A DNA stretch of 64,000 nucleotides, from NCBI RefSeq assembly GCF_000014285.2, contig NC_008343.2, positions 2,032,501-2,096,500 on the forward strand, in the 5' to 3' direction. Under the pieces are notes generated by a model. That model did no database searches, had not been told where the DNA came from, and was given only the letters and a program-made list of their open reading frames with translations. How positions within the stretch are numbered: position 1 is the stretch's first letter; every line of letters begins with the position of its first letter. The position numbers and the translations under genes are program-made. Shown in pieces: positions 29,053 to 41,333 of the stretch. The DNA comes from Granulibacter bethesdensis CGDNIH1 (GTDB taxonomy: Bacteria; Pseudomonadota; Alphaproteobacteria; Acetobacterales; Acetobacteraceae).

Positions 29053-29388
29053 TTAGTGACTGATCATCCATGGTCGTTGGGCAGGAAAACTTTTAGCGGC
29101 TGGCGGTGAGTCCGCCGTCAATTTCGATTTTCCCTTCGTTGTGGTACAGCAGGAGCATCCGGATGGATGACTCCCGCGTGATCGGCGCGGCGCATGCATA
29201 CTGCGCTCATTGGTAGCAAATGCAGTTCGCCGGGCAGAATCCATAGCGGCAAATGATGGTGCGGTGAGTAACACACGCGGAGCAGATGTGCCGCAATCCG
29301 GGCAGCACGCAGGCTGCTCGAACTCCGACATCGGACGCATCACAGTAAAAACGCCGCATGACTCACAATGATAGTCATAGACCGGCAT
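29053..29388 (-). CDS. fmdB: FmdB family zinc-ribbon protein
   Basis: A 111-residue protein. The N-terminus MPVYDYHCESCGVF and the CCPDCG pair make the FmdB zinc ribbon, named from the formamidase operon of Methylophilus, where it was proposed to be regulatory. A second Cys cluster (PSGCSCCTTTKGK) in the C-terminal tail is unusual for such a short protein. A perfect GGAGG lies before the ATG. It is the last gene of the urt-fmd operon, 11 bases after fmdA. Confidence 0.88.
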   Translation of the reverse strand: MPVYDYHCESCGVFTVMRPMSEFEQPACCPDCGTSAPRVLLTAPSFAAMDSARRTAFATNERSMHAPRRSRGSHPSGCSCCTTTKGKSKLTADSPPAAKSFPAQRPWMISH

Positions 29389-29399
29389 AGGAGACCTCC

Positions 29400-30632
29400 T
29401 TACAGATCCTGCGCAATCGGCATATCCACCAGGCCAGGTGTTACACCACCGCTGGGACCATCCGCACCCGGATTGATATCAAAGTCAAAAATTTCCGTGG
29501 GTACCCAGAGCGTGGCACAGGAATTGGGAATATCGACCACACCGCTGATATGACCCTGTACCGGTGCAGTGCCGAGGATCGAATATCCCTGTGCACCGGA
29601 ATATCCAAATTTCTTCAGATACTCGATAGCATTGAGGCAAGCCTGACGATAGGCGACATTGACATCAAGGTAATGTTGTTCGCCTTGCTCATCGACTGAA
29701 ATACCCTCGAAGATCAAATAGTCACTGTAAACGGGTTTGATGGGACTCGGCTTGAAGATCGGATTTTTGATTCCATACTTTGCCATTCCATCCTTGATCA
29801 GATTCACACGCATATGAATCCAGCCTGGCATTTCGATAGCGCCACAGAAGGTAATTTCACCATCGCCCTGGCTGAAGTGAAGATCACCAACGGATAGACC
29901 GGCCCCTGGAACATAAACCGGGAAGAATACCCGGGCCCCTCGTGACAGATCCTTAATATCGCAATTGCCTCCATGCTCACGAGGAGGAACGGTGCGGGCA
30001 CCATGAGCGGCGGCGGCATCACGTGCCTCACCTTTGAGACGCCCCATATGGGCTGTCGGCTCAAAAGGCGGATTGGCCAAAGGTGGCACACGATTTGGGT
30101 TGGTTGCGATCAGCGCTTTCTCCCGCGCATTCCATTTTTCCAGCAGATCGGGAGATGGCAGGCATCCTATCAGGCCTGGATGAATCAGGCCGGCATAATT
30201 TACGCCGGGAACGTGGCGAGAAGAGGCAAACATGCCATGGAAATCCCAGATTGATTTCTGGGCTAAAGGAAAATGGTCCGTCAGAAAGCCGCCACCATTC
30301 TTTTTGGAGAAAAACCCGTTAAAGCCCCACGCATTATGCGGGAATGCACCAATATCCAGAAAGTCGACAACCAACAGATCACCCGGCTGAGCCCCCTCGA
30401 CACCGATCGGGCCGCTGAGATAATGTACGGTTGTCAAATCGACATCCCGAACATCTTCGGCTGAGTCATTATTTTTTATGAATCCGCCTGTCCAGTCATA
30501 GCATTCGACAATAAAATCGTCTCCTGGCTTGACTGTGGCAACCATTGGAATGTCATGATGCCACCGATTATGCACCATATCATTACTGATAGCGGGTTGT
30601 GACAGGTCGATTTTGATGATCGTATCAGTCAT
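29400..30632 (-). CDS. fmdA: Formamidase (acetamidase/formamidase family)
   Basis: A 410-residue cytoplasmic amidase hydrolysing formamide, and perhaps acetamide, to ammonia and the acid. Family marks include HNRWHHDIPMVATVKPGDDF, REHGGNCDIKDLSRGARVFFP and VGDLHFSQGDGEITFCGAIE. Its length matches FmdA of Methylophilus methylotrophus. It sits behind a five-gene ABC importer, with fmdB after it. Because no urease is present, this enzyme is the likely consumer of what the importer brings in. Confidence 0.93.
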   Translation of the reverse strand: MTDTIIKIDLSQPAISNDMVHNRWHHDIPMVATVKPGDDFIVECYDWTGGFIKNNDSAEDVRDVDLTTVHYLSGPIGVEGAQPGDLLVVDFLDIGAFPHNAWGFNGFFSKKNGGGFLTDHFPLAQKSIWDFHGMFASSRHVPGVNYAGLIHPGLIGCLPSPDLLEKWNAREKALIATNPNRVPPLANPPFEPTAHMGRLKGEARDAAAAHGARTVPPREHGGNCDIKDLSRGARVFFPVYVPGAGLSVGDLHFSQGDGEITFCGAIEMPGWIHMRVNLIKDGMAKYGIKNPIFKPSPIKPVYSDYLIFEGISVDEQGEQHYLDVNVAYRQACLNAIEYLKKFGYSGAQGYSILGTAPVQGHISGVVDIPNSCATLWVPTEIFDFDINPGADGPSGGVTPGLVDMPIAQDL

Positions 30633-30678: not shown

Positions 30679-31368
30679 TTAGACAGCCAGGAAACGGGCT
30701 ACTTTTTCCTGATCAAGATTTTCTTTTGTATCCTGATGAACAATCTTGCCACCTTCAATTACCATGATCCGATCAGCAACATCCAGTGCAAAGGATAAAA
30801 CCTGTTCAGACACAAAAATTGAAAGCCCTTTCTGATCACGTATTCTACGCAGTGTTCTGGCCATTTCGAGAATAATGGAGGGCTGAATACCTTCAGTCGG
30901 TTCATCCAGAAGCAGAACCTTTGGCTCAGTGGCCAGAGCACGGGCAATGGCAAGCTGTTGCTGCTGGCCGCCCGATAGGTTTCCGCCACGGCGTCGACCC
31001 ATTTCTTTCAAAACCGGGAAAAGTTCATATAAATCAGAAGGTATTTTCAATTTTCCTCTTACAAAAAGACCTGTTTCAATGTTTTCTGTCACTGTCATCG
31101 TTGAAAAAATCATACGCCCCTGCGGAACATAGGCAATGCCGGTTTCAACACGGCGGTGGCTTTTCATCGTCGTGATATCGGTGCCATCCAGCATGATCTT
31201 CCCCCCGCTACCGGGAACCATCCCGATCAGCGATTTCATCAGCGTCGATTTTCCCATGCCATTGCGACCAACAATAGCCACAATTTCTCCTGCACCAATA
31301 TCAAGATCAATCCCGTGCAGAACTTCACTTTGACCATATGACACGCGCAATTCGTTTGTAGTCAGCAT
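30679..31368 (-). CDS. urtE: Amide/urea ABC transporter ATPase UrtE
   Basis: A 229-residue ATPase of the LivF/UrtE branch. Walker A VGRNGMGKSTLMKSL, signature LSGGQQQQLAIARAL, Walker B VLLLDEPTEGIQPS and the switch segment (FVSEQ) fit UrtE; the usual switch His is replaced by Gln-containing SEQ, as is common in this branch. The ATG at 31368 follows AGGAGA; the frame extends to a TTG overlapping urtD. It pairs with UrtD to drive the importer. Confidence 0.93.
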   Translation of the reverse strand: MLTTNELRVSYGQSEVLHGIDLDIGAGEIVAIVGRNGMGKSTLMKSLIGMVPGSGGKIMLDGTDITTMKSHRRVETGIAYVPQGRMIFSTMTVTENIETGLFVRGKLKIPSDLYELFPVLKEMGRRRGGNLSGGQQQQLAIARALATEPKVLLLDEPTEGIQPSIILEMARTLRRIRDQKGLSIFVSEQVLSFALDVADRIMVIEGGKIVHQDTKENLDQEKVARFLAV

Positions 31369-31379
31369 AGCGTGTCTCC

Positions 31380-32126
31380 TCAATGTCCCAGATAGACTTC
31401 AATAACTTTCGGGTCATTCTTTACATGTGCCATGGTTCCATCTGACAAAACCTGCCCCTGATGAAGAACCGTTACTTTATGGGCAATATCCTCCACAAAA
31501 CCCATGTCGTGCTCGATAACCAGTACAGAGCGACCTTCAATGATCCTGTGCAGCAGCTCAGCGGTTTTCTGCCGCTCGGCTACGCTCATACCTGCAACCG
31601 GCTCATCGAGCATGAGAAGTTCAGGATCCTGAATCAGCAGCATTCCTATTTCCAGCCATTGTTTCTGACCATGGCTAAGATACTCGGCCCGTTCATGAAG
31701 ACGATCCTGAAGGAAAATCATCTCGCTGATTTCCTCAATTCTGGAACGGACTTCTGCGTCACACCGAAAGCTTAATGCTCCAAACACAGATCGGCCACGC
31801 GGATAAGAAATCTCAAGATTCTCGAAAACCGTGAGATCTTCATAAATCGATGGGTTCTGGAATTTACGCCCTACTCCTGCACGAACAATCTGATGCTCCT
31901 TCAAGGTGGTCAGTTCATGATTACGGAACCTTATAGACCCTGATGATGCTTTTGTTCGCCCGCAGATGAGGTCAAGAACTGTGGTTTTCCCTGCTCCATT
32001 TGGACCAATGATCACGCGGATTTCATTGCGATCAACGTAGAAGGACAGATCATTAACGGCCTTGAAACCATCGAATGAAACGGTCAATCCCTCCACAGCC
32101 AGAAGAAAATCTGTTTCTGATGACAT
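31380..32126 (-). CDS. urtD: Amide/urea ABC transporter ATPase UrtD
   Basis: A 248-residue ATPase of the LivG/UrtD type. Walker A IGPNGAGKTTVLDLI, UrtD-specific VGRKFQNPSIYEDLTVFENL, signature LSHGQKQWLEIGM, Walker B LLMLDEPVAGMS and the switch His in VIEHDM are all present. The LSHGQ signature and KFQNPSIYEDLT text are typical of UrtD rather than LivG. It lies 14 bases after urtC in the operon. Confidence 0.93.
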   Translation of the reverse strand: MSSETDFLLAVEGLTVSFDGFKAVNDLSFYVDRNEIRVIIGPNGAGKTTVLDLICGRTKASSGSIRFRNHELTTLKEHQIVRAGVGRKFQNPSIYEDLTVFENLEISYPRGRSVFGALSFRCDAEVRSRIEEISEMIFLQDRLHERAEYLSHGQKQWLEIGMLLIQDPELLMLDEPVAGMSVAERQKTAELLHRIIEGRSVLVIEHDMGFVEDIAHKVTVLHQGQVLSDGTMAHVKNDPKVIEVYLGH

Positions 32127-32140
32127 GACAGCTTTCTCCC

Positions 32141-33286
32141 TTACTTCACAACCACAGGCGTATCGGTCGAAGAAAGTACTTCTTTGGCTGCATTATTCTG
32201 TCTGTTACCCATGCCGAGCAGGCGGCTGACATAGGGATCGAGATAGCTGCGATACAATCCGGCCAGACCGTTGGGGAACACCATTGTCACAATGATGAAC
32301 AATGCGCCCATTGCAAACAGCCAGGCATTGGGGAACGCTTCTGAAAGGGTGGAGCGGGCCCAGTTTACCAGCAAGGTTCCATACAGCGCACCCAGCAGAG
32401 AGGTACGCCCACCGACAGCAGCGAAAATCACCATTTCGATAGAAGGAACGATTCCGACAAAACTCGGGGACATGAAGCCAACCTGGAGGGTAAACATTGC
32501 GCCTCCCACTCCGGCCAGAGCTGCCGCAACACAAAAGGCAAAAATCTTGAAACTCGCAACGTCATAGCCCGAGAAGCGAACCCGATCCTCCCGATCGCGC
32601 ATTGCCAGCAGAATACGACCGAGCTTTGATCGCCTGATAAACTGAAGCAGAATCAGACTGCCCAGAAGCAGGCCGCAGCAGACGAAATACAGCACGTTTC
32701 TGGCATGATCTGTACGGATATCCCAACCATGAAAGCTGCGCAGATCGGTGATTCCATTGACCCCACCGGTATATCCCTGTTGGCCAATGATCAGAATGGT
32801 CAGAATGGCGGCAATGGCTTGCGTGATGATGGCGAAATATGTGCCGCCTACCCGCCGCCGAAACATGGCGATTGCGATCACCAGTGCCAGCACCATCGGC
32901 ACTGCAGGAACTGCAAAAATGGTAAAGGCAAGGCTGTGAAACGGCTTCCAGAACCATGGCAGTGAGGTAATCTGGTTCCAGTCCATGAAATCAGGAATAC
33001 CTGGTGTAGACTGGATTTTGGTCGCTTCCGGCGTTGATGATTCCAGCTTCAGATACATGGCCATGCAGTAGCCGCCGAGACCAAAAAACACGCCCTGACC
33101 AAGACTGAGAATACCCGCGTCACCCCAGCACAGCACCAGACCGAGCGCTACGAAACCATAGGTCAGATACTTTCCGAACAGGTTCAGGCGAAACGTATCG
33201 AGACCAAGGGGAAACACAACAAGGATCAGAAAGGCAAACAAGCCGATACACAGAATATCTTTGCGATTGAGGAAACTGCTGTTCAT
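32141..33286 (-). CDS. urtC: Amide/urea ABC transporter permease UrtC
   Basis: A 381-residue inner-membrane permease of the LivM/UrtC type with about 9-10 hydrophobic segments. Typical text includes CWGDAGILSLGQGVFFGLGGYCMAMYL, GGTYFAIITQAIAAIL and MVFPNGLAGL. UrtC-type WGDAGILSLGQ near the first membrane segments distinguishes it from amino acid LivM. It lies between urtB and urtD with short gaps. Confidence 0.92.
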   Translation of the reverse strand: MNSSFLNRKDILCIGLFAFLILVVFPLGLDTFRLNLFGKYLTYGFVALGLVLCWGDAGILSLGQGVFFGLGGYCMAMYLKLESSTPEATKIQSTPGIPDFMDWNQITSLPWFWKPFHSLAFTIFAVPAVPMVLALVIAIAMFRRRVGGTYFAIITQAIAAILTILIIGQQGYTGGVNGITDLRSFHGWDIRTDHARNVLYFVCCGLLLGSLILLQFIRRSKLGRILLAMRDREDRVRFSGYDVASFKIFAFCVAAALAGVGGAMFTLQVGFMSPSFVGIVPSIEMVIFAAVGGRTSLLGALYGTLLVNWARSTLSEAFPNAWLFAMGALFIIVTMVFPNGLAGLYRSYLDPYVSRLLGMGNRQNNAAKEVLSSTDTPVVVK

Positions 33287-33300
33287 GTGAAATATGCTCC

Positions 33301-34227
33301 TCAGCGCCGAACCTTGAGAACAAACAGACCCTGCGGACGGATCATCAGAATAATGATAACCGACAGCAGCACGATTACCTGAGCCATCGAACCACTGAGG
33401 AAGAATTCCAGCGTGGACCGTGCCTGGGAAATCGTGAATGCGGAGGCAATCGTACCGAGCAGGCTCGATGCACCGCCGAAGACCACGACAAGGAATGTAT
33501 CGACAATGTAAAGCTGGCCGGCAGTCGGGCTGGTGGATCCGATCATCGTAAACGCAGCCCCGGCCACACCCGCGATGCCACAGCCGAGGCCGAAAGTCCG
33601 ACGATCCACCCTTTCTGTATCAATCCCGACAGCTGCCGCCATCGGGCGGTTCTGCACAACAGCCCGCACCTGCTTGCCCCATCCCGAGCGAAACATCAGC
33701 AGATAGACCCCGACTGTGATCAGTGTAGTGAGACCCATCACCAACAGACCATTGATGGGAATTTCGATACTTTCGGAAAGATGAGTTGCCCCCATCATCC
33801 ATTCAGGCAGATTGACGCCGACTTCACGCGCCCCGAAAACCGAGCGATAGATCTGCTGCATGATCAGACTGAGACCCCATGTCGCCAGCAGACTGTCGAG
33901 CGGTCTTTTGTAGAGATGACGTATCATCAGCCATTCCACCAGCATCCCGGCAAGGCCCGAGGCGCAGAAAGCCAGCACGACGGCAATAGGGAAATAGATT
34001 GCAAATGCACCGGGAATAAACTGAGAAAAAAGCTGTGACGTCAGATAGGTCACATAAGCGCCCAGGATCATGAATTCCCCATGCGCCATATTGATGACGC
34101 CCATCTGGCCAAAGATAATGGCCATGCCGAGCGCCATCAACACAAAGACGGAGAACAGGATAAGCCCGGAAAACCCCTGCATCACAAAGATGGAACCGAG
34201 TTCACTTATCGAGTAGCCACCCATCAA
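33301..34227 (-). CDS. urtB: Amide/urea ABC transporter permease UrtB
   Basis: A 308-residue inner-membrane permease of the LivH/UrtB type. The segment MALGMAIIFGQMGVINMAHGEFMILGAY is the family hallmark, and a second conserved part reads AVGIDTERVDRRTFGLGCGIAGVAGA. About eight membrane spans are visible. It lacks the long N-terminal exported domain found in some UrtB proteins. It lies 40 bases after urtA. Confidence 0.93.
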   Translation of the reverse strand: MMGGYSISELGSIFVMQGFSGLILFSVFVLMALGMAIIFGQMGVINMAHGEFMILGAYVTYLTSQLFSQFIPGAFAIYFPIAVVLAFCASGLAGMLVEWLMIRHLYKRPLDSLLATWGLSLIMQQIYRSVFGAREVGVNLPEWMMGATHLSESIEIPINGLLVMGLTTLITVGVYLLMFRSGWGKQVRAVVQNRPMAAAVGIDTERVDRRTFGLGCGIAGVAGAAFTMIGSTSPTAGQLYIVDTFLVVVFGGASSLLGTIASAFTISQARSTLEFFLSGSMAQVIVLLSVIIILMIRPQGLFVLKVRR

Positions 34228-34267: not shown

Positions 34268-35551
34268 TCACTGATATCCTTTGGGGAACGGATCAGGCTT
34301 GATCAGATCCGGCGTTTCCCACACCACTTTGAACTGGCCATCCAGCTGGGCCTGTCCAACCCGTGTGCGGCTCCACAGATGATGATTGGGATCAATTTTG
34401 ACGTAACCTTCCGGCGCGGTTTTCAGCTCCAGGCCTGGCGACGCGGCAATAACTTTGTCTACATCGAAACTGCCGGCTTTTTCACAGGCCATTTTCCAAA
34501 GGAACGGACCAAGATAGGCGGCCTGTGTGACATCGCCGATGACGCTTTTCGGTCCATAGGCTTCCTTGAAGGCGGCGACGAATTTCTCGTTGTTGGGGTT
34601 CTTCAAGGACTGGAAATACTTCATGCATGAATAAGCGCCGGCAATATTTTCGCCGCCAATCCCAAGAACCTCGTCTTCCGTCACGGAAATGGTCAGCACG
34701 GTCTGTTTGCTCAGATCAATGCCAGCCGCTTTCAGTTGCTTGTAGAATGCGACATTGGACCCACCAACCACGGCAGCATAGATGACATCCGGCTTTTTCA
34801 GACGGAACTTGTTGATCACCGAATTGAACTGGGTATGGCCGAGGGGGAAATAATCCTCGCCCACCACCTTACAGCCCGGCAGATGATTTTCGATGTGCTT
34901 GCGGGCGATTTTCATCGACGTACGCGGCCAGATGTAATCGGAGCCGATAAGATAGAAGGTTTTTGCTCCCTTCACCTTGTTGACCCAGTCCAGCCCGGCG
35001 ATAATCTGCTGTGTTGCTTCCTGCCCGGTGTAGAAAACGTTCTTGGACTGTTCGAGGCCTTCATAGAAGGTGGGATAATACAGCAGCCCGTTATACTGTT
35101 CGAACACCGGCAGCACCGCCTTGCGCGAGGCAGAGGTCCAACAGCCGAAAACCGTAGCGCATTTGTCGTTCACCAGCAGCTTGCGAGCTTTTTCAGCAAA
35201 AGTCGGCCAGTCACTGGCGCCGTCTTCCTGAATATACTTGATCTGCCGGCCCAGCACGCCACCCGCCGCGTTGATCTGGGAAATGGCGAGTTTCTCCGCC
35301 TCAATGGAGCCGGTTTCGCTGAGCGCCATGGTACCGGTGGAGGAATGCAGGATACCCACTGTCACCGTGTCATCGGTCACAGCCAGCCCGGTCTTGTCGA
35401 TTGCCGCGGTGGCGGGTTTGCCATCCGCCCATGATGTGCCGGGCAGCAGGGCAGCGGCCGGCAGTGCGGCCATGCCCTGCAACAGGCGGCGACGCAGGCC
35501 GGAACGGGGAGTGTCCATATCGGAGGCATCAAAGGGGGAATGATCGGCCAT
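34268..35551 (-). CDS. urtA: Amide/urea ABC transporter substrate-binding protein UrtA
   Basis: A protein of about 427 residues resembling UrtA/FmdD periplasmic binding proteins. The N-terminus carries GLRRRLLQG followed by a hydrophobic run, so a twin-arginine signal is likely. Mature features: VTVGILHSSTGTMALSE, EDGASDWPTFAEKARKL, VFGCWTSASRKAVLPVFE and NNLLYYPTFYEG-like sequence (NGLLYYPTFYEGLEQSKN). The family binds urea or short-chain amides; formamidase in the same operon favours amides. I place the start at the ATG at 35551 (AGGA upstream); an ATG at 35572 is the alternative. An 18-bp palindrome lies 80 bases upstream. Confidence 0.92.
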   Translation of the reverse strand: MADHSPFDASDMDTPRSGLRRRLLQGMAALPAAALLPGTSWADGKPATAAIDKTGLAVTDDTVTVGILHSSTGTMALSETGSIEAEKLAISQINAAGGVLGRQIKYIQEDGASDWPTFAEKARKLLVNDKCATVFGCWTSASRKAVLPVFEQYNGLLYYPTFYEGLEQSKNVFYTGQEATQQIIAGLDWVNKVKGAKTFYLIGSDYIWPRTSMKIARKHIENHLPGCKVVGEDYFPLGHTQFNSVINKFRLKKPDVIYAAVVGGSNVAFYKQLKAAGIDLSKQTVLTISVTEDEVLGIGGENIAGAYSCMKYFQSLKNPNNEKFVAAFKEAYGPKSVIGDVTQAAYLGPFLWKMACEKAGSFDVDKVIAASPGLELKTAPEGYVKIDPNHHLWSRTRVGQAQLDGQFKVVWETPDLIKPDPFPKGYQ

Positions 35552-35633
35552 ATGTTTTGTCCTGACGGTCATGTCGGAGGAAAAAATCGTTTCCGCTTCG
35601 CGACATACTGGTCCGGCCGGACGCCAATCATGG

Positions 35634-35651
35634 ATACGTCATATGACGTAT
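35634..35651. promoter_or_regulatory. Perfect 18-bp palindrome in the urtA/sensor divergent promoter region
   Basis: ATACGTCATATGACGTAT is a perfect palindrome, located between the divergent urtA and sensor kinase genes. It is a good candidate operator for the LuxR-type response regulator encoded at 39268. The site lies inside the longer alternative reading of the kinase frame, which is one reason to prefer the kinase start at 35765. Confidence 0.65.
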
Positions 35652-35764
35652 GGCAACGCATAGCGGATGAAGGGAGGCTCCCTCACCATACACGGCCATA
35701 CGGTGGCGAGGATGGTAAAAGGTCAGGCGAAAAAACCGGGCCATTATGGCATACTGCCCCCGAC

Positions 35765-38700
35765 ATGACCCAAAGACCGCTCCCTGAATCGCCGGAAGGC
35801 AGCCCCTGGATTTCCCGTCAGCGCATTGTCCGCATCCGCAGGGATTATAATCGCTGGGTCGCTGATGAAACGCTGGAAGATTATGCGCTACGCTTTACAG
35901 CGAGGCGTGCCCGGCGCTGGAGCGGCCTGCGCATTGCCAATACCGCGCTCAGTGCCATCTCCTTCCTCGCGTTGGAAGCCATTGGTGGCACGATCACGGT
36001 GGGATACGGCTTTACCAATGCCGTCAGCGCCATTTTCGCGGTCGGGTTGCTGATTTTTCTGGCCGGACTGCCGATCAGCCTGCAGGCGGCCCGGGCCGGG
36101 GTCGATATTGATCTGCTCACCCGTGGCGCAGGGTTCGGGTATATCGGCTCCACCATCACATCGCTGATCTATGCCAGTTTTACCTTCCTGTTCTTTGCGT
36201 TGGAAAGCGTCATTCTGGCCTCGATGCTGAAAATCTGCTTCGGCATTCCGCTTTATGCGGCCTATCTGATCTGCTCTGTCGTCGTGATCCCGGTGGTGGT
36301 ACGCGGTATTTCCGCCATCAACCGTGTCCAGCTCTGGACCCAGCCTTTATGGCTGGTACTGCACTGCATACCCTTCATCGCCATTGCTCTCAACGGGCGC
36401 GACATTCTGGGTCTCTGGGTTGGTTTTGCGGGGATTTCACCCCTTTCCGGCATGCCCGGCGGTCATGGGTTCGACTGGCTGGGCTTTGGGGCAGCGGCCT
36501 CGATCATCATGTCCCTGATCACGCAAATCGGGGAGCAGATCGATTATCTGCGCTTTATCCCGGCAGAGACACAGGAACGTCACAGGTTCCGCTGGACCAT
36601 GACCGTTCTGGCGGGGGGAGCCGGGTGGATTTTTCCCGGCATGCTGAAAATGCTGGCCGGGTCGTTTCTGGCGGTTTTTGCCATCCATGCGGGTATTCCC
36701 GCCATGGAAGCCATTCAGCCAGCCTGGATGTACCGGATCGCTTTCGGCTCGCTGGGCCTGCATCCGACAGCCGCGCTGTTTCTGGCAGCGCTGTTCGTGT
36801 TCATCTCCCAGTTCAAGATCAACGTGACCAACGCCTATGCAGGCTCCATCGCATGGTCGAATTTTTTTTCCCGCCTGACCCATGCCCATCCGGGACGGGT
36901 GGTATGGCTGATCTTCAACATTGCCATTGCGCTGGCACTCATGGAGCTGGGTGTCTTTCAGGCCATCGAAGCCACGCTGCATAATTACTCCAGCATCGCC
37001 GCGGCCTGGATGGGAGCACTCGTTTCGGATCTGACAATGAACCGGGCCCTGGGACTGGCTCCGCGACAGATCGAGTTCAAACGTGCCCATCTGCCGGACG
37101 TCAATCCGGTCGGAGTTGGAGCGATGCTGACCGCCATTACGGTTTCCCTCTGCGCTCAGGCCGGATGGTTCGGTGTTGCGGCTGGCGTGTTCTCGCCTTT
37201 TCTCGGCTTTGCAACCGCCTTTGCGGCAGCACCTGTGATCGCATGGGTAACGGGGGGTAAAACCTATCTGGCGCGCAAACCCAGGCGGAGCTGGGCGCAT
37301 CGCCAAAGTCTGCATTGCGTGGTCTGCGAAAACGACTTCGAACCGGAGGATTCGGCCTATTGCCCCGCTTATGGCGACGCAATCTGCTCATTGTGCTGTT
37401 CCCTCGATGCACGGTGCGATGATCTCTGCAAGAAACCGGAGACGAGGCTTTCAGTCCAGTGGCACCGCATCCGACAATGGCTTACCCCCACCCGCCTGCA
37501 ACCTGTGCTGAACAGTCTGGGAGGACGCTACTGCATTGTCTTTGCGATGCTGGGAGGCAGCACCGGCCTGATGTTGCTGGGGATTTATCACCAGACTGTT
37601 TCCGGCCTGACCCGGACGGACCCTCTGTTACGCAGCGCCTTCTGGCAGGCATGGTGCGTCATGCTGCTGATTTCAGGCATTGCCGCGTGGCTGCTGGTTC
37701 TGGCGCTTCAAAGCCGACATGTCGCACGAGAGGAAAGCCGCCGTCAGACCGCGCTGCTGATGAACGAGATCCGCGCCCATCGCCGCACCGATGCCAAGCT
37801 GCAGAAAGCCAAGGAAGCGGCGGAATCCGCCAACCTCGCCAAAAGCCGTTTCGTGGTCGGGGCCAGTCATGAACTGCGCTCCCCCCTGAATGCGATTCTC
37901 GGCTATGCGCAGTTGATGGATGGGGATGAAACCCTGCCCCCCAGATGGCAGCGCGCCATCGGCATCATGCGCCGCAGCGGAGAACATCTGGCCGGGCTGA
38001 TCGAGGGTCTGCTGGATATCTCGAAAATCGAGGCCGGACGGATCGATGTGGCCCGTGATGCCGTCAGGCTCGGTGATTTTCTGGATCAGATTGTCAGCAT
38101 GTTCCGCATTCAGGCGGAGGCGAAAGGCATCGACTTCATCTTCGATCGCCCGGAGACACTGCCGGATCAGGTCTATACCGATGAGCGCAGGTTAAGGCAG
38201 ATTCTGATCAATCTGCTGTCCAATGCCATCAAGTTCACACGCTACGGACGGGTAACTTTCCGTGTGCGGTGGCGCAGCCAGATTGCCGATCTCGACATTA
38301 CCGATACCGGGATCGGTATTGACGAACAGGAGCTGGAACGGATTTTCGAGCCGTTCCACCGCACATCCGGCGCCCTGCATGCCAGTATGCCCGGAATCGG
38401 ACTGGGACTGACGATTACCAAACTGCTGGTGCAGATTCTGGGCGGCGACATCACCGTGCAATCAAAGCTGGGCGAAGGCAGCACTTTTCATATCCGCCTG
38501 ATGCTCTCGGAAGTACAGCAGAGTACGGAAGCGCCTGCGGAAACGCTTCAGCCTACATCTGCCACCATTGCCGCGACGCTACGCCCGGGCATGACTGCGA
38601 TCATTGCGGATGATGATCCGGTCCATCGTGATATGATGAGCGATATTCTGGCACCTTTGGGAATCACCGCCATTCAGGCCGTCAACGGTCAGGCCTGTCT

Positions 38701-39271
38701 TGAACTGGCTGAAGAGCAGCGGCGCGCTGGCAACGTCGTTGCCCTGTTCCTGCTCGACATCCAGATGCCGGGGTTAAATGGATGGGAAGTCGCGCGCTAT
38801 CTGCGTGAATCTGGTTTCAGTGAAGCGACCATTCTGATCATCTCCGCCAATTCCGGGGCCATCAGCGGCGGCAGCATGGCAGGCGATCATCATGACGGGC
38901 TGTTGAGCAAACCTGTTGATATCAGCATGCTCTATGCGTTTCTGCATCAGCGACTGCATCTGCAAAATAAAACGATCGCAAAAAGCGAGCCGTTGCCGAT
39001 CATCGGCGCCACGGCCCTGCCGCCGGAGCAGGGTCTGACCAAACTCGATGCCAGACAGCGTAATGAGTTGCGCCAGCTCCTCGCCATCGGATACATGCGC
39101 GGTCTGCGCAACAAAATGGAGGATATCGCCACGACCCACCCGGATACCCGTCCCGATATCGACCGGCTGCGCCATCTGGCGGATCAATTCGACCTCAATG
39201 GTCTGTCAGCCCTGCTGGATCATACTTCGGCAGAATCGTCCCCTCTTCTTTCAGACAGCAATGCTCCATGA
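35765..39271 (+). CDS. NCS1 permease-fused hybrid sensor histidine kinase
   Basis: A 1168-residue membrane sensor. Residues about 40-500 form a polytopic domain resembling NCS1 (purine/cytosine/allantoin) permeases: LEAIGGTITVGYGFTNAVSA, then KINVTNAYAGSIAWSNFFSR. Residues about 516-558 carry eight cysteines (CxxC-x11-C-x7-CxxCC-x5-C-x3-C), a likely metal module. Two more membrane spans precede a coiled segment, HisKA (SHELRSPLN, His702), HATPase (NLLSNAIKFT, DTGIGID, GIGLGL), a receiver (LLDIQMPGLNG, Asp998) and a helical tail. The ATG at 35765 is favoured; an in-frame ATG at 35630 is possible. It overlaps the response regulator gene by 4 bases. Ligand unknown; amides or urea are inferred from neighbours. 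Confidence 0.85.
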   Translation: MTQRPLPESPEGSPWISRQRIVRIRRDYNRWVADETLEDYALRFTARRARRWSGLRIANTALSAISFLALEAIGGTITVGYGFTNAVSAIFAVGLLIFLAGLPISLQAARAGVDIDLLTRGAGFGYIGSTITSLIYASFTFLFFALESVILASMLKICFGIPLYAAYLICSVVVIPVVVRGISAINRVQLWTQPLWLVLHCIPFIAIALNGRDILGLWVGFAGISPLSGMPGGHGFDWLGFGAAASIIMSLITQIGEQIDYLRFIPAETQERHRFRWTMTVLAGGAGWIFPGMLKMLAGSFLAVFAIHAGIPAMEAIQPAWMYRIAFGSLGLHPTAALFLAALFVFISQFKINVTNAYAGSIAWSNFFSRLTHAHPGRVVWLIFNIAIALALMELGVFQAIEATLHNYSSIAAAWMGALVSDLTMNRALGLAPRQIEFKRAHLPDVNPVGVGAMLTAITVSLCAQAGWFGVAAGVFSPFLGFATAFAAAPVIAWVTGGKTYLARKPRRSWAHRQSLHCVVCENDFEPEDSAYCPAYGDAICSLCCSLDARCDDLCKKPETRLSVQWHRIRQWLTPTRLQPVLNSLGGRYCIVFAMLGGSTGLMLLGIYHQTVSGLTRTDPLLRSAFWQAWCVMLLISGIAAWLLVLALQSRHVAREESRRQTALLMNEIRAHRRTDAKLQKAKEAAESANLAKSRFVVGASHELRSPLNAILGYAQLMDGDETLPPRWQRAIGIMRRSGEHLAGLIEGLLDISKIEAGRIDVARDAVRLGDFLDQIVSMFRIQAEAKGIDFIFDRPETLPDQVYTDERRLRQILINLLSNAIKFTRYGRVTFRVRWRSQIADLDITDTGIGIDEQELERIFEPFHRTSGALHASMPGIGLGLTITKLLVQILGGDITVQSKLGEGSTFHIRLMLSEVQQSTEAPAETLQPTSATIAATLRPGMTAIIADDDPVHRDMMSDILAPLGITAIQAVNGQACLELAEEQRRAGNVVALFLLDIQMPGLNGWEVARYLRESGFSEATILIISANSGAISGGSMAGDHHDGLLSKPVDISMLYAFLHQRLHLQNKTIAKSEPLPIIGATALPPEQGLTKLDARQRNELRQLLAIGYMRGLRNKMEDIATTHPDTRPDIDRLRHLADQFDLNGLSALLDHTSAESSPLLSDSNAP

Positions 39272-40188
39272 CACCACGCGACATCGTCCTGCTGGTCGAT
39301 GATACACCGGGCAGTCTGTCCGTCCTGCATGATGCGCTGGATATGGCCGGCTATACCGTTCTGGTTGCACAATCAGGGCAGGCTGCCCTGACGCTGATCG
39401 AACAGGTCACACCCGATATCATTCTGCTGGATGCGATTATGCCGGGCCTGGATGGGTTTGAAACCTGCCGCCGCCTGAAACAGCATCCAACCTATGCCAT
39501 GATTCCGGTCATTTTCATGACCGGCCTGACCGACACCAAACATGTGGTGCAGGCTCTGCAATGCGGCGGGGTAGATTACGTGACCAAACCTGTCTCTCCG
39601 GAACAGGTGCTGGCCCGCATTACCGTGCATCTCGGCAATGCGCGTCTGATGCAGAGTGCGCATGTCGCACTTGATCGCGCCGGGCGCTATCTGTTTGCCG
39701 TCGATGCCACCGGGCATATTTCATGGAGCACCCCACAGGCGGCTCTTCTGCTGGGCGCTTCAGATGGCAGACCGGTGCTACCTGCTTTTCTGCTGCCCTG
39801 GATCGCCGAATGCGCCAGCGGTGAAGCGATGACCGGCAGCCGCCGGGTCGTTGTGGAAAGCCGGCTTTCTCCTGAAGGCACGGGATCGCGGGAGGTGGAG
39901 ATCGTGTTCTTCGGCACCTCACGCGAGGACGAGATCCTGATGCGCCTGATCATCAATGATCCAGCCGAGGAGCAGACTATCCTGCATCAGCGTCTGCCCG
40001 TGACGGCACGGGAGGCTGAAGTTCTGCTATGGATCGGCCGAGGCAAACAGAACCGTGACATTGCCGATATTCTGGGTCTGAGTCCGCGCACCGTGAACAA
40101 GCATCTGGAACAGATCTACACCAAGATCGGGGTCGAAAACCGGGCTGCTGCCGCAGCCGTTGTCATGAAATTGCTGGCCTCCCGCTGA
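39268..40188 (+). CDS. Response regulator with LuxR-type DNA-binding domain
   Basis: A 306-residue regulator. The N-terminal receiver has acidic residues Asp11/Asp12, phospho-acceptor Asp55 (IILLDAIMPGLDG) and Lys near 104 (YVTKPVSPEQ). A middle segment resembles a short PAS domain (GRYLFAVDATGHISWSTP). The C-terminal HTH reads LPVTAREAEVLLWIGRGKQNRDIA and LGLSPRTVNKHLEQIYTKIGV. It overlaps the sensor kinase gene by 4 bases, so the two are one two-component system. It probably controls the amide genes on both sides. This is a DNA-binding protein, unlike the RNA-binding AmiR of Pseudomonas amidase operons. Confidence 0.92.
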   Translation: MTPRDIVLLVDDTPGSLSVLHDALDMAGYTVLVAQSGQAALTLIEQVTPDIILLDAIMPGLDGFETCRRLKQHPTYAMIPVIFMTGLTDTKHVVQALQCGGVDYVTKPVSPEQVLARITVHLGNARLMQSAHVALDRAGRYLFAVDATGHISWSTPQAALLLGASDGRPVLPAFLLPWIAECASGEAMTGSRRVVVESRLSPEGTGSREVEIVFFGTSREDEILMRLIINDPAEEQTILHQRLPVTAREAEVLLWIGRGKQNRDIADILGLSPRTVNKHLEQIYTKIGVENRAAAAAVVMKLLASR

Positions 40189-40265: not shown

Positions 40266-40311
40266 CATGCATCATCATTTTCTGTCGCGGGGAACAGGCT
40301 CATGATGCATG
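40266..40311 (+). promoter_or_regulatory. Inverted repeat enclosing the amiE ribosome site and start codon
   Basis: CATGCATCAT (40266-40275) is exactly complementary to ATGATGCATG (40302-40311). The right arm contains the amiE start codon and the loop contains the GGGGAA ribosome site. In mRNA this ten-pair stem could limit translation. No T-run follows, so it is not a standard terminator. Function is inferred. Confidence 0.4.
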
Positions 40312-41333
40312 GTGACATTTCCAGCTCTGCCGATACAGTCGGCGTTGCTGTCGTCAATTACAAAATGCCGCGTCTGCATACGATCGAGGACGTACGCAGC
40401 AATGCCCATGCCATTGCCGAGATGATCATCGGCATGAAAACCGGTCTGCCGGGCATGGATCTGGTGATTTTCCCGGAATACAGCACCCACGGCATCATGT
40501 ATGATGAGGCCGAAATGATGGAAACCGCCGTTTCCATCCCCGGACCGGAGACCGATATTCTGGCCGATGCCTGCCGCCGGGCCAAAGTATGGGGCGTGTT
40601 CTCCCTGACTGGCGAGCGGCATGAGCAGCACCCGGAAAAACGGCCCTACAACACGCTGATCCTGATCGACGATACCGGAAAAATCGTTCAGAAATACCGC
40701 AAGATCATTCCGTGGACACCGATCGAAGGCTGGTATCCAGGCGATCAGACCTACGTGTCTGAGGGTCCGAAAGGGATGAAAATCAGCCTCATCATCTGCG
40801 ATGACGGCAATTATCCTGAAATCTGGCGTGATTGCGCCATGCGTGGTGCAGAGCTGATCGTACGCTGTCAGGGTTATATGTATCCCGCAAAGGAACAGCA
40901 GATATTGATGGCCAAAGCGATGGCATGGGCCAACAACGTCTATGTGGCCGTGGCCAATGCGGCTGGATTTGACGGGGTGTATTCCTATTTCGGCCATTCC
41001 GCGATCATCGGGTTCGACGGACGCACCCTGGGTGAATGCGGGACGGAGGAAAACGGCATCCAGTATGCCCAGCTTTCCAAAGCCCTGATCCGCGATGCCC
41101 GCAGGAACGGGCAATCGCAGAACCATCTCTACAAGCTGTTGCACCGTGGGTATACCGGCACCATTGCCTCCCGCGAGAATATCAGCGGCAAGGCGGAATG
41201 CCCCTATTCCTTCTACCGCGACTGGATCACCGATCCTGAAGGCACACGCGCCAAAGTCGAAGCCCTGACCCGCAGTGAACCCGGTGTTGCCGATTGTCCG
41301 GTTGCCGGTGTGCCGACACCGACAGGGTCATAA
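40302..41333 (+). CDS. amiE: Aliphatic amidase
   Basis: A 343-residue nitrilase-fold amidase that hydrolyses short aliphatic amides such as acetamide and propionamide to ammonia and the acid. It is very like Pseudomonas Ami[21 protein letters not shown] at the start, catalytic Glu59 (FPEYSTHG), Lys134 (KYRKIIPW), Glu142 and Cys166 ([10 protein letters not shown]). The start at 40302 matches the Pseudomonas N-terminus. The 113-base gap after the response regulator contains an inverted repeat over its start. It complements FmdA in extracting nitrogen from amides. Confidence 0.95.

Follow-up and report, generated by a model that had tools for sequence, protein, structure and literature searches.

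Histidine kinases fused to a secondary carrier are known in the form of CbrA, CrbS and RpuS, which in the passages covered are described as combinations with SLC5 and STAC domains. For the NCS1 carrier CodB, passages of PMC9379551 report that Phe33 touches cytosine and that two aromatic residues, Phe204 and Trp108, sandwich it; urea or amides are not reported as an NCS1 substrate class in the passages of the NCS1 literature covered. Inducible use of such compounds is described for Methylophilus, where, according to parts of the review PMC10781810, the fmdCABDEF cluster comprises formamidase, a putative regulator, an amide/urea porin and an importer, and formamide and urea act as inducers. In a Pseudomonas amiE-fmdAB-urtABCDE locus published in 2026, amiC and amiR were reported to be absent, and the main text contains neither 'histidine kinase' nor 'two-component'. 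A literature search, with most subscription journals outside its coverage, revealed no NCS1-type histidine kinase and no sensor for urt/fmd loci. Here, a stretch of 64,000 nt from Granulibacter bethesdensis CGDNIH1 (contig NC_008343.2, positions 2,032,501 to 2,096,500), called the window below, was analysed for a gene specifying a hybrid sensor histidine kinase with a permease-type membrane domain, and for the adjacent response regulator gene. From these analyses it appears likely, with a probability of roughly 0.7, that the kinase is a receptor for urea and/or short-chain amides, which by phosphorelay controls uptake and hydrolysis of these compounds.

The longest open reading frame (ORF) of the kinase gene, a program-made call from 35540 to 39271 on the plus strand, specifies 1243 amino acids, and residue numbers refer to this ORF unless stated otherwise. 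A start at 35765, corresponding to Met76, is preferred, because relatives of the kinase begin at about residue 90 and the urtA ORF on the opposite strand extends to 35572, i.e. into the long kinase ORF. An earlier note on this DNA, made from the letters alone, had counted from the start at 35765, a choice now borne out by these two observations. Its His702 and Asp998 correspond to His777 and Asp1073 in the long ORF, and the eight cysteines it placed at 516-558 are C593-C630 minus the offset. Both phospho-acceptors are present in a protein with HisKA, HATPase_c and receiver domains, which makes it a hybrid sensor histidine kinase. The two additional membrane spans also proposed before, which lead from the Cys module to the DHp helix, match helices 568-595 and 603 onward (model numbering) of the AlphaFold model. 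No PAS domain was detected in the kinase by Pfam at E<=0.001, and of the putative helical tail at the C-terminus (about residues 1134-1243), residues 1142-1243 searched alone gave a chance-level Pfam match only (Rnk_N, E 6.8). The LuxR-type regulator gene said to overlap the kinase gene was recovered with Response_reg and GerE domains, its start at 39268 overlapping the kinase stop by 4 bp.

The membrane domain was modelled by AlphaFold as part of residues 93-835, using an alignment of 52 rows (the window protein and 51 relatives), with a mean predicted local distance difference test score (pLDDT) of 83 and a predicted template modelling score of 0.79. In Foldseek searches with the model, the top five matches were CodB and Mhp1 chains with E-values from 6e-9 to 2.3e-7 (best values 6e-9 for CodB and 2.1e-8 for Mhp1). 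VIA-align gave a Z of 31.7 for CodB (397 residues aligned, 3.7 A) and of 27.8, 26.9 and 25.1 for Mhp1, and the first match outside NCS1 was an amino-acid carrier at 23.3. SLC5-type chains scored about 21 (9bfi 21.8, 5nva 21.2, 7uuz 20.6), under NCS1; they belong to the same superfamily, and fold alone does not exclude SLC5. At the sequence level, residues 93-590 matched no Pfam family even at E<=10 (PF02133 included), the membrane part matched no NCBIfam family at E<=1 (TIGR00800 included), and it found no PDB chain by single-sequence phmmer. Permeases of the same kind without a kinase, termed solo permeases here, behaved similarly: Pfam gave nothing above chance for five of them, and the one tried by phmmer had no PDB match. 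Proof of NCS1 kinship by sequence only, attempted with Pfam, NCBIfam and PDB searches, therefore failed. A link is provided by the NCS1-like protein L092, which is found with the membrane query in its genome (27% identity, E 2.5e-15) and matches PF02133 (E 6.4e-10), itself having no PDB match by phmmer. Because PF02133 and TIGR00800 matches are absent and the link runs only via L092, the domain is regarded, on the basis of the model, as having an NCS1-type fold and forming a clade outside the Pfam NCS1 model, and is not called an NCS1 member. Thus, the NCS1-like transporter domain of the earlier note stands with respect to fold, CodB and Mhp1 ranking ahead of SLC5-type chains, and falls with respect to a Pfam or NCBIfam family match; a membrane domain unrelated to transporters, considered there as a refutation, is at odds with a predicted fold matching carriers.

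In an alignment to Escherichia coli CodB, S138 and S141 correspond to the Na2 carbonyls Gly29 and Phe32, F142 to Phe33, and T215 likewise occupies a substrate-contact position; the residue roles are those given for the Proteus protein in passages of PMC9379551, with numbering assumed to be equal to E. coli CodB. The aromatic residue of transmembrane helix 6 (TM6), Phe204 in CodB, is L326 in the kinase, and Trp108 is F218. A cavity without the TM6 aromatic would suit a small ligand. K426 was considered as a residue near the Na2 site and set aside; the alignment of TM8 to CodB is ambiguous, and Na2 ligands on TM8 are not alignable with confidence.

The kinase system is widespread. A scan of genome contigs yielded 58 loci, spread over alpha-, beta- and gammaproteobacteria. 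Within the order, the membrane part has a match in 53 of 200 genomes, a count that includes the own genome and solo permeases. In the phylum, a solo-permease query found matches in 59 of 398 genomes, for the most part via fused forms and in a few cases weakly via distant NCS1-like proteins. Plasmids are also represented with 531 of 72,556 records, solo forms counted; 342 of these count as Klebsiella by their first word, and conjugative ability is predicted for 307 of the 531. Among the matches listed, the gene is mostly named 'ATP-binding protein' in annotated plasmid rows, and Klebsiella plasmid rows carry the names 'ATP-binding protein', 'ArcB', 'PotE' or 'response regulator'. A response regulator match lies directly 3' of the kinase in 56 of the 58 loci, the remaining two contigs ending inside the kinase, and GerE was detected by Pfam in the window's regulator and in all three relatives tested.

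For the gene neighbourhoods, ORFs of 92 distinct fused loci (57 of the 58 from the contig scan, L081 being incomplete, plus 2 and 33 further ones; the window itself not counted) were labelled by Blast against proteins of the window and urease proteins. The family assignment of the references for urease and class-2 urt was checked; class-2 Urt proteins share about 36-53% identity with those of the window, depending on the subunit. Loci with FmdA, AmiE or class-1 UrtA were considered amide type, and those with class-2 UrtA and/or UreC, the urease alpha subunit, urea type. With at least 5 kb available upstream, 81 of 82 fused loci adjoin urea or amide genes, 48 being of amide type, 31 of urea type and two of both; neighbours other than these genes were not surveyed in this count. 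Ten further loci have a shorter flank, and four of them (L048, L064, L065, L140) have neither gene set. The amide-gene setting claimed in the earlier note is therefore correct for amides and too narrow in its limitation to them, since 31 of the 82 loci are urea-only, and homologues consistently located away from amide or urea genes, named there as a refutation, are contradicted by 81 of the 82 loci. The class labels require three changes on a tree of 36 labelled rows, and differences in the pocket between urea and amide class are not separable from phylogeny in this set. Two loci (L135:8899-11556 and L136:8663-11347) specify a permease-kinase fusion without a receiver, followed by a separate gene for a receiver and histidine kinase, near formamidase. 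In genome G105 the kinase is found in two pieces (L097, L098); a natural split was considered and rejected, as ORFs of integrase, resolvase and, weakly, relaxase families in between indicate an insertion, a mobile element of about 14 kb separating the permease part from the Cys module.

Between urtA and the kinase gene of the window a palindrome is located that the earlier note does not mention, TACGTCA-NN-TGACGTA, which is proposed as operator of the response regulator (Table 1). In the upstream regions of 91 loci and the window (92 in total, up to 450 bp each), the dyad TACGT-N6-ACGTA is present in 52, the commonest dyad in 20 shuffles reaching 3-5. The full palindrome with up to two mismatches was found in 60 of the 92 regions and never in 20 dinucleotide shuffles; after thinning, 42 of 71 regions had it. 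Matches with 0, 1, 2 and 3 mismatches numbered 31, 28, 24 and 37 over the loci vs 0, 0, 5 and 35 in one shuffle. The own genome contains two sites with up to two mismatches, both exact. The second one (G000:C1:2605015, equal to L172:8016-8031) closely follows a pyruvate dehydrogenase (quinone) gene and precedes an OprB-family porin gene by about 125 bp; the two other genomes searched within the genus have kept it. In 22 genomes, hand-picked among those with matches, the search at no more than one mismatch gave 21 distinct sites, all in context: 16 lie at most 350 bp upstream of the point where the match to a fused kinase starts, two before fmdA, one before amiE, and two before an OprB porin gene. 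On the one Klebsiella plasmid examined (kinase L193:10992-14372), formamidase-urtEDCBA is divergent from the fused kinase, and a one-mismatch palindrome lies between urtA and the kinase. Pseudomonas and related gammaproteobacterial loci (L049, L050, L052, L057, L058, L063, L079) often show a second or third weaker copy with 1-3 mismatches, about 21-25 bp apart, before urtA. At L089, L091 and L129, where a solo permease replaces the urt ATP-binding cassette (ABC) importer beside fmdA, no palindrome was found at up to two mismatches, and the regulators there may use another site.

Table 1. Features of the kinase locus and neighbouring genes, with positions in the window
Feature	Position	Strand	Basis or remark
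Hybrid sensor histidine kinase with permease-type receptor	35765..39271	+	preferred start 35765; longest ORF from 35540
NCS1-type LeuT-fold membrane domain (predicted), about residues 105-586	35852..37297	+	AlphaFold model, Foldseek, VIA-align
Eight-Cys module C593-C630, C-x2-C-x11-C-x7-C-x2-C-C-x5-C-x3-C	37316..37429	+	conservation; isolated model
Two membrane spans, about residues 660-722, entering DHp helix	37517..37705	+	AlphaFold model helices
HisKA, residues 767-833, with His777	37838..38038	+	Pfam
HATPase_c, residues 880-989	38177..38506	+	Pfam
Receiver (Response_reg), residues 1021-1133, with Asp1073	38600..38938	+	Pfam
NarL/LuxR-type response regulator, receiver and GerE helix-turn-helix	39268..40188	+	Pfam Response_reg 1.8e-28, GerE 5.2e-17
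Palindrome ATACGTCA-TA-TGACGTAT, proposed response regulator operator	35634..35651	.	between urtA and kinase gene; TACGTCA-NN-TGACGTA exact at 35635-35650
urtA-like substrate-binding protein, divergent from kinase gene	34268..35572	-	TIGR03407 above cut-off; start uncertain
urtB-like permease	33301..34227	-	TIGR03409 above cut-off
urtC-like permease	32141..33286	-	TIGR03408 above cut-off
urtD-like ATPase	31380..32126	-	TIGR03411 above cut-off
urtE-like ATPase	30679..31383	-	TIGR03410 above cut-off
Formamidase fmdA	29400..30632	-	NF045496 above cut-off
FmdB-type zinc ribbon protein	29053..29388	-	TIGR02605 and NF053663 above cut-off
Aliphatic amidase amiE	40302..41333	+	NF009802 above cut-off; 113 bp 3' of response regulator gene

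The amide importer/formamidase operon and the amidase described before as flanking the kinase are confirmed by family matches for UrtA to UrtE, FmdA, the FmdB-type protein and the amidase. No sigma-70 promoter signal exceeding shuffles was obtained.

All eight cysteines of the Cys module are kept in 118 of 118 fused rows covering it, except C626 (117, one gap). The module is not specific for kinases, because kinase-less permeases carry eight or four of its cysteines. All eight are present in three of three solos forming an 8-Cys group, and C593, C596, C616 and C619 in seven of seven forming a 4-Cys group. In five distant NCS1-like rows the module is gapped or missing, bar one stray aligned cysteine. 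An isolated model of the module had a pLDDT of 71 and weak, zinc-finger-like fold matches, none of them under E 0.34. The module is probably metal-binding; most likely it is of zinc type and belongs to the permease lineage. Its presence in the kinase had been recognized correctly in the earlier note; that it goes with the permease lineage is new, solo permeases carrying it too.

The three 8-Cys solos (L089, L129, L091) have a fused kinase, a regulator and fmdA in their vicinity, and no urtA match was found in these stretches; amiE is also present at one of these loci and urease at two. Urease is nearby in six of the seven cases of 4-Cys solos. An eighth 4-Cys solo, annotated 'allantoin permease', is encoded on an Acinetobacter ursingii plasmid (L194:7950-9557), where a complete urease cluster (ureE to ureC) of equal orientation follows immediately; this solo is a candidate NCS1-type urea carrier. 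By their position, solo permeases look like urea or amide carriers. In an unrooted quick tree of thinned rows, with the interrupted fused row kept and the five distant rows and the long-branched L139 excluded, 72 fused and 10 solo rows are placed on two sides of one branch with a support of 96. Rooting with distant NCS1 rows was tried and failed; branches on the outgroup side amount to 2.6 to 10 changes per column, and long branches meet. The best reading is that the receptor shares a lineage with a urea/amide permease.

Comparison of 119 fused and 10 solo rows, at sites selected for differing, revealed several fixed or nearly fixed differences. At the TM1 break, F142 is found in 119/119 fused rows vs Y in 10/10 solo rows, L145 in 114/119 (M in three, C in two) vs D in 10/10, and E146 in 119/119 vs Q or F. 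In TM8, A434 (118/118) stands against S (10/10), and further differences are A164 (118) vs G and G187 (116) vs N. To regard these positions as lost transport residues was judged too strong, the sites having been selected for differing and D145 not being general in NCS1, where position 145 in the five distant rows is F, Y, W, Y and Y.

Taken together, a pathway can be proposed in which urea or an amide, the putative ligand, would bind in the central cavity of the NCS1-fold domain and shift the carrier conformation. In the direction presumed for the signal, this shift could be transmitted via the Cys (metal) module and the two-span hairpin to the DHp helix and alter kinase activity. Phosphate would then pass to the internal receiver and on to the adjacent NarL-type response regulator, which in turn would bind TACGTCA-NN-TGACGTA and control urtABCDE-fmdAB together with the kinase and regulator genes. 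Its control would extend in some genomes to separate promoters, those of fmdA, amiE and a porin gene. Of this scheme, the order of the domains, the match of the predicted fold, the gene setting and the palindrome with its placement are observations.

The domain could also still transport urea or an amide, with transport itself as the signal read by the kinase; such a mechanism has been proposed for CbrA. Such a variant of the receptor reading appears rather unlikely. It would agree with the complete fold in the model, with many polar residues common to receptor and solo permeases, and with histidine transport by CbrA as given in passages of PMC7096432. Sensor-only residues are, however, fixed at the TM1 break and in TM8, an ABC importer or a solo permease is already available at most loci, and in passages of PMC5764959 the recruited carrier of Ks-Amt5 binds its ligand without translocating it. 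Since the kinase activity of CbrA in vitro was unchanged by histidine despite a carrier transporting it (passages of PMC7096432), the substrate of a carrier is not necessarily the signal, and nitrogen status or ammonium could be sensed instead of urea or amides; ammonia represses the Methylophilus fmd cluster according to parts of PMC10781810. The urea/amide setting of nearly all loci, within the limits of that survey, and a receptor fold which is not that of Amt make ammonium or nitrogen status a quite improbable signal. It is very unlikely that the permease is a mere anchor and the Cys module a redox or metal sensor: near invariance of the eight cysteines in fused forms would be expected from such a sensor, but the same eight in three solos and four in seven others show that they do not depend on a kinase, and the gene setting indicates urea or amides, not metal or redox.

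Several results weigh against the urea/amide receptor and its proposed regulon. A profile of fused and solo rows only (A3) retrieved no PDB sequence at E<=10, and CodB (E 4.8e-6) was reached only once two bridging NCS1-like rows had been added. Locus L086 has full flanks without urea or amide genes by the references used (1/82). The permease tree is not safely rootable, so that a receptor derived from a permease is unsupported and a common lineage of fused and solo forms is what the sequences indicate. With respect to the palindrome, 32 of the 92 upstream regions have none at up to two mismatches, and urea-type loci carry it less often (18/32; thinned 8/22) than amide-type loci (40/54; thinned 32/44). 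Three-mismatch matches are as frequent at the loci as in the shuffle (37 vs 35). A reversed-pattern control gave five matches at up to two mismatches in the own genome vs two real sites, and matched six places in the 22 genomes. Seven of these 22 lack a site at up to one mismatch. Within what was examined, G177 and G415 have the fused kinase only; both forms are present in G067, G148 and G189, and a solo alone in G045 and G090. Upstream regions without a site though the kinase is present, and the matches of control patterns, would also fit binding of the palindrome by another regulator, of LysR type or global, with other targets for the kinase/regulator pair. We consider this unlikely in view of the regulator gene adjacent in 56 of 58 loci and the appearance of all 21 strong sites in context. 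In addition, the 7-2-7 inverted repeat TAC...GTA has the shape of a NarL-family site, and the adjacent NarL-type regulator is the protein presumed to bind the palindrome.

It seems reasonably probable that the kinases constitute a widespread, undescribed class of urea/amide receptor kinases, built from an NCS1-fold carrier and a metal module, akin to kinase-less candidate urea/amide permeases, with a regulon defined by TACGTCA-NN-TGACGTA, and representing the missing sensor for induction by formamide and urea. A candidate sensor and a candidate operator for such induction would thus be available in alpha-, beta- and gammaproteobacteria, many plasmids included. Because the same fold exists as fused receptor and as solo probable carrier, what turns a carrier into a receptor is directly testable, and the two forms are a natural comparison set with few fixed differences at the TM1 break and TM8.

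Among known systems, the Methylophilus cluster resembles these loci in formamidase, putative regulator, porin and importer, but the passages of the review covered (PMC10781810) name no sensor kinase. With CodB, Mhp1 and MetT the kinase shares the predicted fold, and F142 and T215 at CodB substrate-contact positions; it differs in having no PF02133 match, in Leu326 instead of CodB Phe204 and in the fused kinase. The ligand proposed here would be non-heterocyclic, as shown for MetT with metformin in passages of PMC13390362. Ks-Amt5 is similar in that a kinase has taken over an uptake transporter to sense a small nitrogen compound. It has the Amt fold, is stated to lack PAS, HAMP and STAC linkers, and in the passages of PMC5764959 covered a Cys module is not mentioned. 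The SLC5-STAC kinases likewise join a secondary carrier with a LeuT-like fold to a histidine kinase, and they too have a response regulator as partner. In contrast to them, the carrier described here is NCS1-type by fold ranking and is associated with urea/amide genes and a NarL-type regulator, and the eight-Cys module and two-span hairpin occupy the place of STAC and PAS in CbrA. If this assignment is true, a third transporter fold would join SLC5 and Amt among the known carrier-derived kinases.

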